DNA of 51,732 bases from Actinomycetota bacterium (GTDB lineage: Bacteria > Actinomycetota > Actinomycetes > Nanopelagicales > Nanopelagicaceae). The stretch is taken from positions 1 to 51,732 of the forward strand of contig WLHB01000005.1 in assembly GCA_009702965.1 (NCBI GenBank), read 5' to 3'. Positions 44,924 to 47,777 of this stretch are shown here, piece after piece; position 1 is the first letter of the stretch; every line of letters begins with the position of its first letter. The notes under the pieces are model-generated. The model ran no database searches, was not told where the DNA came from, and saw only the letters and a program-made list of their open reading frames with translations. Made by a program: the position numbers and the translations under genes.

Positions 44924-45879
44924 TGAGCTCTGCACAAACATTTGATTTCACCACCTCTCTCGCAGGGGCCCATTTCCCAACTCCAATATTTACAGCAAGC
45001 GGCTGCGCCAGTTCAGGAAAAGAGCTTGCTCAATTTTTTGATCTCACACAAGTGGGTGCAATTGTTACCAAGTCAGTGATGAACAAGCCTCGACATGGTC
45101 GCCCCACTCCTCGCATGGCTGAAACCCCATCAGGCATGCTCAATTCAATTGGACTTCAAGGCCCCGGGATCGACTATTTCTTAGCAAATGATGTCCCGTG
45201 GCTTCTGGAAAGAGGTGCCCGCGTTGTCGTCTCAATCGCAGGCGAGACAATTGATGAGTACGCAGTATTGGCACGGAAGGTACGTGCCGTCTCAGGCATT
45301 AGCGCGATAGAGGTCAATATCTCTTGCCCTAATGTGGAAAATCGAGGAATGGTCTTCGCATGTGAAAGTGATACTGCAGCACGAGCTATCGATGGTGTGC
45401 GAAAGATAATCGGTGGAGAGATCCCGATCATTGCAAAACTCACTCCTGATGTCACTGACATCACGGCGATCGCATCATCAGTTGTTAACGCAGGAGCTGA
45501 TGCACTCGCTCTTATTAACACCGTCTTAGGTATGGTCATAAATCTGGACACGATGAGACCCCATCTAGGTGGAAAAACTGGTGGGCTTTCAGGACCAGCG
45601 ATTAGACCAGTAGCAGTTCGCGCAATTTACCAAGTGCATAGCGCTATGCCACATGTACCAATTCTCGGCATGGGTGGCGTTGCCTCAGGTCGCGATGCTC
45701 TTGAACTTGTCCTTGCCGGTGCTTCTGGAATTTCAATTGGTACGGCCAGTTTCGGCGATCCGATGGCCTTGCCTCGAGTGCAACGTGAATTGCAATCACT
45801 TCTCATCGCACGAGGATTTACCTCGTTCAAGGATGCTATTGGCTACGCCCATCGATCAGAGACAGGTGGCGCGCAGTGA
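44923..45879 (+). CDS. Dihydroorotate dehydrogenase, class IB catalytic subunit
   Basis: PyrD oxidises dihydroorotate to orotate using FMN. The 318 residues show the class I start FPTPIFTASGCASSGKE, KSVMNKPRHGRPTPRMAET, NSIGLQGPG, the catalytic-Cys motif NISCPNVENRG, LTPDVTDIT, and the FMN phosphate site GMGGVASGRDALEL. A Cys base (not Ser) assigns it to class I. The ATG shares one base with the pyrK stop (TGATG); a longer in-frame start inside pyrK is unlikely. Confidence 0.95.
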   Translation: MSSAQTFDFTTSLAGAHFPTPIFTASGCASSGKELAQFFDLTQVGAIVTKSVMNKPRHGRPTPRMAETPSGMLNSIGLQGPGIDYFLANDVPWLLERGARVVVSIAGETIDEYAVLARKVRAVSGISAIEVNISCPNVENRGMVFACESDTAARAIDGVRKIIGGEIPIIAKLTPDVTDITAIASSVVNAGADALALINTVLGMVINLDTMRPHLGGKTGGLSGPAIRPVAVRAIYQVHSAMPHVPILGMGGVASGRDALELVLAGASGISIGTASFGDPMALPRVQRELQSLLIARGFTSFKDAIGYAHRSETGGAQ

Positions 45880-46577
45880 CATCTCCAATAATTCTTGCGG
45901 TAGACACTCCTGATCTCGATATCGCGCGTCGTTGGATTGATGCTACTCGTGCGAGTATCGATGTCTACAAGCTAGGTCTTGAATTCTTCTTAAGTCATGG
46001 CATCGATGGGATTGCATCGATCCAAAATGAGACCGGGGCATCGATCTTTCTAGATCTTAAACTGCACGACATTCCAAATACAGTTTCTAAGTCAGCAGCA
46101 GTCGTTGAAAGACTGCACCCGCGGTTTTTAACGGTACACGCCAGTGGTGGAAGGGCTATGGTCTCAGCTGCTGTGAATGCGGTGACTACAACATCAATTA
46201 CTGCGGTCACTATTCTGACATCACTGAGCGAGAATGATTTAGCAGAGATTGGATTTAAAGGCTCAGCCTTCACGACAGCTCAGTCACTGGCGCAGGTTGC
46301 AGTAGATGCGGGAGCAACCTCAATCGTCTGTTCACCACATGAAATTTCTGGAATTCGATCAGTTGTTGGTGATGCGATCGAGATCATTACTCCTGGAGTA
46401 CGGCCAGCAGATGAGACAGGTAGTGATGATCAGATGAGAACGATGACACCTGCGCAAGCAATTGCTTTGGGTGCTAACTTTCTTGTCATCGGTCGCCCGA
46501 TCACCTCGCGCTGGAGCCAAGGATCGCAGGCGATGGCAGATCGAGCGGCAGAGATCGTTGAATCAATTCACAAGTGA
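45876..46577 (+). CDS. Orotidine 5'-phosphate decarboxylase
   Basis: PyrF makes UMP, the last step of the operon. The 233-residue barrel has the substrate motif LAVDTPDLDIARRW, YKLGLEFFLSHG, the catalytic FLDLKLHDIPNTV (Asp-Lys-Asp) and a phosphate site in TPGVRPAD and VIGRPITS. It is the type I, short form, unlike the longer type II enzymes of many high-G+C actinobacteria. The GTG start overlaps pyrD by 4 bp. pyrE does not occur in this window. Confidence 0.95.
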   Translation: MTSPIILAVDTPDLDIARRWIDATRASIDVYKLGLEFFLSHGIDGIASIQNETGASIFLDLKLHDIPNTVSKSAAVVERLHPRFLTVHASGGRAMVSAAVNAVTTTSITAVTILTSLSENDLAEIGFKGSAFTTAQSLAQVAVDAGATSIVCSPHEISGIRSVVGDAIEIITPGVRPADETGSDDQMRTMTPAQAIALGANFLVIGRPITSRWSQGSQAMADRAAEIVESIHK

Positions 46578-46602: not shown

Positions 46603-47487
46603 ATGAAGCGTCCTCCAGTTCTTACTTCAGAACAGAGAAATGCTGCGCTCGAAAAGGCGCGGGCGTCGAGGGCTAGAAGAGCGGATGTAAAGTCAGAGGT
46701 CCGTAAGGGCAACCTATCTATAGAAGATATCTTCACTCTCATCCAATCTGATGAAGCCGTAGCAAAGATGCGAGTGGCTGAACTTCTTGAGTCATATGCC
46801 GGCGTAGGAAAAGTGCGCGCTATCGCAACCTTGGATAGACTTGGAATTTCTAGAACACGACGTTTACAAGGCCTTGGTACCCATCAACGTCACGCACTCA
46901 TTAAGGAGTTTTCGATTCCACGTAACGATGCTCATGATGGAACGCTCATTGTTCTCTCTGGTCCCGGGGGAGTAGGTAAGAGCACGGTCTCTCGAGAAAT
47001 CCGAAAGAGTAACGATTTTTGGGTGAGCGTATCTGCTACCACAAGAAAACCTCGTGATAAAGAAGTGCATGGAATTGATTACATTTTCCTGAGCGATGAA
47101 GAGTTTGATCGTGGAATTGGTAATGGCTATTTTCTGGAGTGGGCACACTTTGCTGGGGCTCGCTACGGAACTCCGCGTCAGCCTGTATTAGATGCTCTTC
47201 ACGACGGTAAAGATGTTCTTCTTGAGATTGAAATTGAAGGAGCAAAGCAGGTCAAGAAAAACTGGAGTGATGCAATCCTCGTCTTCCTTAATCCTCCGAC
47301 ATGGGAAGAATTGGTCTCACGACTAGAGGGTCGTGCCACAGACACCCCAGAACGTCGCGCAGAGAGACTTGCTCTTGCTCAAGATGAGATGGCCCAGGCA
47401 CCTCTTTTCGATCAAATCCTCGTAAATGACGAGGTCGATAAGGTGGTCGAGAGCCTGATAAGATTGGCTCATTCGCAGCGTTCATAA
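46603..47487 (+). CDS. Fusion of mycobacterial-type integration host factor and guanylate kinase
   Basis: One open frame of 294 residues covers two normally separate genes. Residues 1-104 match actinobacterial mIHF/sIHF (LTSEQRNAALEKARASRARRA, SDEAVAKMRVAELLES, GVGKVRAIATLDRLGISRTRR, LQGLGTHQRHALIKEF), a nucleoid protein with a helix-two-turn-helix. Residues about 113-294 are a complete guanylate kinase with P-loop SGPGGVGKST (119-128), SATTRKPRDKEVHGIDY, the GMP-binding YFLEWAHFAGARYGTP and the lid region RLEGRATDTPERRAER. The linker is about 8 residues. No stop, frameshift or in-frame start codon lies at the junction. In mycobacteria and streptomycetes the genes are adjacent, so the order is conserved and only the join is new. 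Confidence 0.93.
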   Translation: MKRPPVLTSEQRNAALEKARASRARRADVKSEVRKGNLSIEDIFTLIQSDEAVAKMRVAELLESYAGVGKVRAIATLDRLGISRTRRLQGLGTHQRHALIKEFSIPRNDAHDGTLIVLSGPGGVGKSTVSREIRKSNDFWVSVSATTRKPRDKEVHGIDYIFLSDEEFDRGIGNGYFLEWAHFAGARYGTPRQPVLDALHDGKDVLLEIEIEGAKQVKKNWSDAILVFLNPPTWEELVSRLEGRATDTPERRAERLALAQDEMAQAPLFDQILVNDEVDKVVESLIRLAHSQRS

Positions 47488-47525: not shown

Positions 47526-47777
47526 ATGGACGGAATCACAAATCCACCAATCGATGAACTTCTCGATAAGAGCGGATCGAAGTACAGTCTCGTCCTTTAC
47601 GCAGCTAAGCGCGCACGTCAGATCAACGCTTATTACTCTCAACTAGGTGAAGGCCTGCTCGAGTATGTGGGTCCACTAGTTGAAACCCATGTTCATGAAA
47701 AACCACTTTCGATTGCACTTCGTGAAATCAACGAAGGTCTTCTCACAATCGAAAATCTTGACCCAGCCGTTAAGTAA
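47526..47777 (+). CDS. RNA polymerase omega subunit
   Basis: RpoZ supports assembly of the RNA polymerase beta' subunit. The 83 residues show the family core [29 protein letters not shown] and the Actinobacteria-style C-terminal part ([16 protein letters not shown]). GGAGG lies 5 nt before the ATG. Its place after gmk is widely conserved. Confidence 0.95.

Follow-up and report, generated by a model that had tools for sequence, protein, structure and literature searches.

Cells usually convert GMP to GDP by means of guanylate kinase (GMK). According to the available portion of PMC6783271, the enzyme works as a dimer, with its tail and lid governing how sensitive it is to (p)ppGpp. The nucleoid protein mIHF of Mycobacterium tuberculosis is described as essential and as one of the ten most abundant proteins of the cell, and deletion of mihF needed gmk and rpoZ to be supplied (PMC6155035, accessible sections). 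In Mycobacterium smegmatis, msIHF-EGFP replaces the essential native protein (PMC10028186, accessible sections), and mIHF therefore appears to tolerate a large partner, the C-terminal position of EGFP being read from the name only. A search of a limited literature collection found no published description of an mIHF-GMK fusion, though NCBIfam gives its IHF model (NF041260) the type ‘equivalog_domain’.

One frame for mIHF and guanylate kinase

Here, we describe such a fusion in a 51,732-nucleotide stretch of DNA (the window) from a genome of the order Nanopelagicales. A sequence-only reading of the window had proposed that the neighbouring genes mihF and gmk merged in frame into one gene of 294 residues with both domains complete. 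This is borne out: a single open frame on the plus strand (46603..47487, stop included) runs uninterrupted over 294 residues from an ATG at 46603 to a TAA at 47485–47487 and encodes mIHF, a linker and GMK, both domains giving full-length NCBIfam and Pfam matches above the curated cut-offs. The mIHF domain (residues 5–103; 46615..46911, plus strand) matches NF041260 actino_IHF with 114.7 bits against a curated cut-off of 60, covering model positions 3–101 of 102, and Pfam H2TH_5 matches residues 34–103 with a score of 82.6 (cut-off 27). The GMK domain (residues 113–288; 46939..47466, plus strand) matches TIGR03263 guanyl_kin with 207.3 bits (curated cut-off 160.45; model positions 1–177 of 180) and Pfam Guanylate_kin over residues 114–288, and its P-loop GPGGVGKST, taken from the translation, lies at 46960..46986 (plus strand). 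The linker had been put at about eight residues; we counted nine between the NCBIfam matches (residues 104–112; 46912..46938, plus strand).

The gene order around the fusion is carB-pyrK-pyrD-pyrF-[mihF-gmk]-rpoZ-coaBC-metK, with the conserved neighbours pyrF (45876..46577, plus strand) 25 nt ahead of the fusion and rpoZ, for RNA polymerase omega (47526..47777, plus strand), downstream of it. The fused protein has a single match in the source genome, and no second mihF or gmk was found in this 1.12-Mb assembly, which is 76% complete. Its nearest named relatives are from ‘Candidatus Nanopelagicaceae’ and ‘Candidatus Planktophila’ (82 and 79% identity).

Since the assembly is incomplete and split into 60 contigs, an assembly or sequencing error might have joined two separate genes, and an indel at the junction had been named as the event that would undo the proposed merger. 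However, independent genomes carry the same fusion. The IHF model matched 33 of the 37 genomes searched in the window's genus (four had no match), and in all 33 the fusion is present, mIHF lying in a frame of 289–340 aa. The 13 single-contig genomes of the genus share the frame without exception, with one match each in a frame of at least 291 aa, and the fusion is also present in other families. The junction is thus not an indel, and we discarded an error as having practically no probability.

An AlphaFold2 model built on an alignment of 60 fused proteins (pLDDT 90.1, pTM 0.62; pLDDT of about 63 in the linker block 101–110) suggests that the protein probably consists of two sound domains, loosely joined. 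VIA-align placed residues 16–104 on DNA-bound sIHF (6bek; Z 16.4, 0.9 Å over 89 residues), in agreement with the sIHF fold, the mIHF half on 4itq (Z 15.9; 0.9–1.1 Å for the two structures) and residues 112–291 on M. tuberculosis GMK (1s4q; Z 25.2). The best 50 rows shown by Foldseek were all GMKs.

Distribution and origins of the fusion

The fused protein matches 271 of the 296 genomes of the order, including all 108 genomes with a completeness of 90% or more and a contamination of no more than 5%. Outside the window's genus, 80 of the 149 matching genomes from the other 16 genera were taken for a survey of frame length. The mIHF frame was too long for mIHF alone in 42 of them, of which five (G005, G012, G016, G079 and G116) have frames of only 185–249 aa, shorter than a full fusion, and it was not too long in the other 38, of which G063 and G290 match only piecewise. 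The fusion is found in 11 of the 17 genera (the window's genus and g2, 3, 4, 9, 10, 11, 12, 13, 16 and 17), and the genes are split in g5, 6, 7, 8, 14 and 15, with g4, g7, g10, g16 and g17 represented by one genome apiece. In other families of the class, 19 of 23 genomes match the IHF model; all 12 loci read are split, and the remaining seven matches lie in frames of 107–125 aa, too short for a fusion. Split junctions consist of overlaps, short gaps or a single in-frame stop beside a start. In two g8 genes, mihF and gmk share the same frame with one stop directly before the start (TAG-ATG in L087, TAA-GTG in L088).

Trees of seven flanking proteins (FastTree on 57 taxa, IQ-TREE on 39 of those taxa) place the split genera g5, g7, g6 and g14 basally and unite all fused genera in a clade in which the split genera g8 and g15 are included. 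This nesting of g8 and g15 recurs in a four-gene tree and in the tree of GMK, some nodes having low support. Constraining the fused genera to one clade excluding g8 and g15 costs 34.9 log units and is weakly rejected, by the AU test (p 0.032) but not by the KH (0.061) and SH (0.067) tests. The placement of g8 relative to g15 varies among trees, and joining the two is tolerated (AU 0.579). Because a single fusion with one or two re-splittings is a shorter history than several fusions, we favour it, moderately in view of the KH and SH values: the order most likely underwent a single early fusion that was split again in g8 and g15. Consistent with re-splitting, g8 and g15 show the raised mIHF/GMK rate ratio of the fused genera (1.50), their residue 88 is never arginine (Q or G in g8, K in g15; see below), and g8 has the same-frame, single-stop junctions. 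The survey of the order that had been suggested as a means to date the fusion thereby places it near the base of the clade with 11 fused and two split genera.

The idea that the fusion is special to this place did not hold up. In a class-wide sample of 393 genomes, 387 of them with a match, one family (f36) stood out among the best matches listed. The mIHF model matches 76 of its 80 sampled genomes, and in 74 of the 76 the stop-to-stop frame around the match is 294 aa or longer. Frame length by itself is poor evidence in GC-rich genomes, and f36 loci were therefore read; both domains lie in one frame in 12 of 12 loci of one set and 20 of 20 of another (one genome in both). A tblastn search of an f36 protein against a plasmid collection led to Microbacterium sp. 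NIBRBAC000506063 (96% coverage, 63% identity), where WP_223172673.1, a single 298-aa CDS annotated only as ‘guanylate kinase’, contains both Pfam domains. Because a named Microbacterium carries a matching fused CDS, f36 most likely corresponds to the Microbacteriaceae, and in this presumed Microbacteriaceae family the fusion is near family-wide. The Microbacterium record (NZ_CP072877.1) is filed as a 465-kb plasmid, has a Fic/DOC gene pair between the fused gmk and rpoZ (L180, 4977–6181) and has pyrF annotated as two overlapping pieces.

In a further family, f34, 45 of 78 genomes have an mIHF match, and of the 32 loci read, six are fused (three each in genera g99 and g113) and 26 split. Fused GMKs of the order, f36 and f34 fall in three places among unfused families in the GMK tree, the deep nodes of which are weakly supported. 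Because GMK trees separate the three groups in this way, the fusion most likely arose three or more times, in Nanopelagicales, f36 and f34. Transfer of one fused gene between lineages is not supported by these three tree positions, and a single very old fusion with many later splits is possible but needs more events than three gains. In all, 105 distinct fused proteins were read with both domains in one frame. Actinomyces, Schaalia and Scrofimicrobium had appeared fused from one joined match, but their loci turned out to be split. Three metagenome assemblies titled ‘Bifidobacterium breve’ (L035, L041 and L043) carry a fusion of the Nanopelagicales type (59–65% identity) and are probably mislabelled. 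A MAG labelled Bacillota (L049, JAAYRO010000057.1) has mIHF and gmk, the kinase domain beginning 365 nt past the mihF stop, and is either mislabelled or holds transferred genes.

In the sampled Actinomycetota, mihF usually lies next to gmk, the two genes overlapping or standing only a short distance apart. Tsukamurella and Collinsella have separate mihF and gmk genes, 6 and 0 nt apart, and the adjacency is therefore old in the phylum. Among the loci compared (L046–L129 and the window), mihF and gmk are fused in 46 of 83, a count that includes related, non-independent loci and 14 loci fetched because they were apparently fused, whereas seven other neighbour pairs are fused in 0 of 460 (53, 51, 56, 58, 84, 81 and 77 loci). 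The pairs carB-pyrK, pyrK-pyrD, pyrD-pyrF and coaBC-metK lie equally close or closer together (median 1–7.5 nt from stop to next domain). Counted in events, the comparison is of about three or more for mihF-gmk with none for the other pairs. Tolerance of a join does not by itself explain why only mihF and gmk fuse in the loci compared.

Constraint on the two halves and separate translation

We determined dN/dS for 11 pairs of related fused genes. It is 0.06–0.11 for mIHF in the five pairs with unsaturated dS and 0.03–0.11 for GMK in ten pairs. In the window's own four pairs with its nearest relatives, the mIHF dS is saturated, so that the low mIHF dN/dS comes from relatives; non-synonymous differences per site in these four pairs are 0.16–0.28 in mIHF and 0.08–0.13 in GMK. 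Both halves look to be under selection, mIHF less tightly. The median ratio of mIHF to GMK distances is 0.80–0.95 in unfused outgroups and 0.97 in the basal split genera, compared with 1.47 and 1.68 in fused genera and 1.62 in f36. The net charge of the mIHF domain ranges from +6 to +12 across the order's 49 sequences (+7 in the window), and an alignment of 60 fused proteins shows no variation at R23, R26, K30, G69, G92 and Q95. In the GMK half, G120, P121, G125, K126, S142, T147, R148, R151, E154, Y160, R240, R244 and R255 are invariant in the 60 fused proteins, and we take these to be substrate-site residues. The linker sequence shows no conservation among junctions.

The mIHF of M. tuberculosis contains an arginine triad of the form RRxR (R170, R171 and R173), which we take to be a mark of its DNA-binding mode; work by Sharadamma from 2017 reportedly concerns the role of these arginines in DNA binding. 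The window has RRLQ at this place, with the first two arginines kept and glutamine as the third, and thus departs from the M. tuberculosis type. This third residue corresponds to sIHF position 88, the third arginine of RRxRGLG, and to M. tuberculosis R173, in a numbering that assumes four extra residues in chain 6tob. Outside the order, 22 of 23 unfused sequences, a set that includes two PDB chains, have arginine here, as do all seven basal split genes, whereas it is never arginine in 33 fused genes of the order (13 G, 12 Q, 7 A, 1 K) or in 32 f36 loci (31 G, 1 S). Family f34 breaks the rule, since arginine is kept in three of six fused loci and absent from 14 of 26 split ones (counted by eye). 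Loss of arginine 88 therefore fails as a strict mark of fusion and is a tendency only, and the triad, also lacking in unfused f34 members, is a functional mark outside the actino_IHF family definition. A change of A59 to E or D also occurs in the unfused f3 (L094, L128) and is thus no specific sign of fusion.

No mIHF match was found in any of 20 genomes from the f34 genera g66 and g110 (e.g. G356, G459, G505 and G541), which are up to 99% complete. The fused protein has a single match in six of them, presumably through its GMK half, and mIHF seems to have been lost in these two genera. In f36, four of the 80 genomes have no mIHF match, two of these (G718, G777) being 99–100% complete, and another six score under the family cut-off; 75 of the 79 sampled genera retain a match. 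HU is present in all 20 genomes tested.

It had also been claimed that no in-frame start lies at the junction from which the kinase alone could be made. This is true of ATG, GTG and TTG, none of which was found in frame between codon 77 (TTG, inside mIHF) and codon 141 (GTG, inside GMK) of the window gene; the reservation is an ATT at codon 105. ATT is a permitted but rare start codon. Here, it starts at 46915, 6 nt behind AAGGAG at 46903–46908, which makes this site (46903..46917, plus strand) the best candidate for separate translation of GMK. AAG GAG TTT followed by ATT is kept in three of four close relatives (L002, L004 and L005), the fourth (L003) having AAA GAG; L006 has AAG GAG with TTG at the place of ATT. 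Two separate proteins, with translation of GMK beginning within the fused frame or a protease releasing it, would also fit the finding that 90 of the 105 distinct fused genes have an in-frame ATG, GTG or TTG close to the junction, an ATG in 30 cases. However, the other 15 lack all three codons from the end of mIHF up to the P-loop, a start with any SD-like stretch occurs in 28 of the 105 and an ATG with one in only six, and ATG, GTG or TTG stands behind AGGAG or GGAGG in 11. The junctions compared share no conserved start position, and the AAG GAG of the window encodes a shared K-E(-F) and may be nothing but coding sequence. We regard separate products as quite unlikely.

Competing explanations and known relatives

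We consider it likely that the gene encodes a bifunctional protein, a tolerated join that arose through loss of a stop codon and under weaker demands on mIHF. The predicted product of about 32 kDa would be, as far as the genomes show, the sole nucleoid protein of the mIHF type and the sole guanylate kinase in the cell. Judging from the split relatives, loss of the stop between adjacent mihF and gmk would have joined the end of mIHF to the start of GMK via the linker of about nine residues. The intact site and single copy suggest that the kinase half is an ordinary GMK. The mIHF half may still bind DNA, as its fold, its charge and the low dN/dS in relatives suggest, perhaps more weakly or differently in view of its faster evolution and the lost arginine. 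The fusion would set a 1:1 ratio of mIHF to GMK and place GMK wherever mIHF goes, and it probably persists because both halves tolerate it and because lineages keeping HU have less demand for abundant free mIHF.

Alternatively, the protein could in effect be a GMK whose mIHF part is decaying and has ceased to serve the nucleoid. The mIHF half evolves at 1.5–1.7 times the GMK rate in fused lineages against 0.8–1.0 in unfused ones, arginine 88 is absent from all fused genes of the order and all f36 loci read, the mIHF match is missing from the g66 and g110 genomes and from four in f36, and HU is kept. Decay is, however, difficult to reconcile with the low dN/dS in the five measurable pairs, the kept charge and six invariant residues, a predicted fold within 0.9–1.1 Å of DNA-bound sIHF, and the retention of mIHF in most sampled f36 genera; in mycobacteria, moreover, mIHF is reported to be essential (PMC6155035, accessible sections). 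We judge decay unlikely. A coupling device, in which GMP, ATP or ppGpp on GMK alter DNA binding by mIHF, or DNA alters GMK, and guanine pools are thereby tied to chromatin, would account for the repeated origin, most likely three or more times, and for the absence of fusions among the other neighbouring pairs. Such nucleotide sensing on DNA, raised already by the sequence-only reading, is possible and unproven. (p)ppGpp inhibits GMK in several phyla through a dimer-dependent lid (PMC6783271, available portion), and absence of (p)ppGpp, considered as an argument against sensing, was dropped since a Rel/SpoT homologue occurs in all 20 genomes tested, as a long copy in each. The one in the window, with a (p)ppGpp synthetase core (PF04607; 19593–19922, plus strand) in a frame of 722 aa, makes (p)ppGpp plausible in this cell. 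Yet the AlphaFold2 model, which comes with no inter-domain error matrix, gives no sign of packed domains (pTM 0.62, pLDDT 90, linker 63), the linker is not conserved, two genera apparently re-split with neither gene lost, and faster mIHF evolution is contrary to what a new allosteric role predicts; neither model nor rates gave a sign of coupling between the halves. We regard coupling as very unlikely. Because the domains appear loosely joined, mIHF evolves faster in fused lineages and no coupling sign was found, the other suggestion of that reading, a merely tolerated join, fits better.

A further idea, which we hold to be rather unlikely, is that the GMK dimer makes the tethered mIHF two-headed, so that it could bridge separate stretches of DNA. 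Avidity would in that case make each single contact less critical, leading to faster mIHF evolution and frequent loss of arginine 88, and binding of guanine nucleotides or (p)ppGpp via the GMK dimer and lid could tune chromosome bridging. If this were true, a nucleoid protein would have evolved repeatedly from an enzyme of GTP synthesis.

The fusion, most likely a bifunctional, tolerated join, is real, old, recurrent and at least partly hidden by annotation. Since most genera of a freshwater order, and a second large family as well, have mIHF and GMK joined in a single protein, knowledge of free mIHF may not carry over to these bacteria, and a nucleoid protein can go unnoticed behind the annotation ‘guanylate kinase’. 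Repeated origin, with equally tight pairs left unfused, sets up a natural experiment that could show whether chromosome structure and the supply of guanine nucleotides benefit from a link between them, and the apparently re-split genera offer a control.

Compared with known systems, the N-terminal 104 residues of the window's protein resemble sIHF/mIHF (NF041260; PDB 4itq, 6bek and 6tob) in fold, keep the basic residues of the first helix and occupy the same place ahead of gmk and rpoZ, and DNA binding and bending by this half are predicted. Whereas the solved sIHF/mIHF are free proteins of about 105 residues, the window's is tethered at its C-terminus and without the third arginine of RRxRGLG, and the mIHF of fused lineages evolves faster than free sIHF/mIHF. 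With bacterial GMKs (TIGR03263; 1s4q and Staphylococcus aureus GMK 4qrh), the window's protein has in common the complete kinase domain and P-loop, and phosphorylation of GMP is predicted from the intact site and single copy; unlike them, it bears an N-terminal stretch of 112 residues of DNA-binding type. WP_223172673.1 of Microbacterium has the two Pfam domains in the same order and is most likely of separate origin, as the f36 GMKs that it resembles group with unfused families and not with the window's order; f36 mIHF domains carry K85 and G88. In the structural rows, MAGUK proteins also combine a GMK-like fold with another domain (SH3/PDZ). Their kinase domains are inactive scaffolds, whereas the window's fusion keeps its catalytic-site residues intact and has a nucleoid protein as partner.
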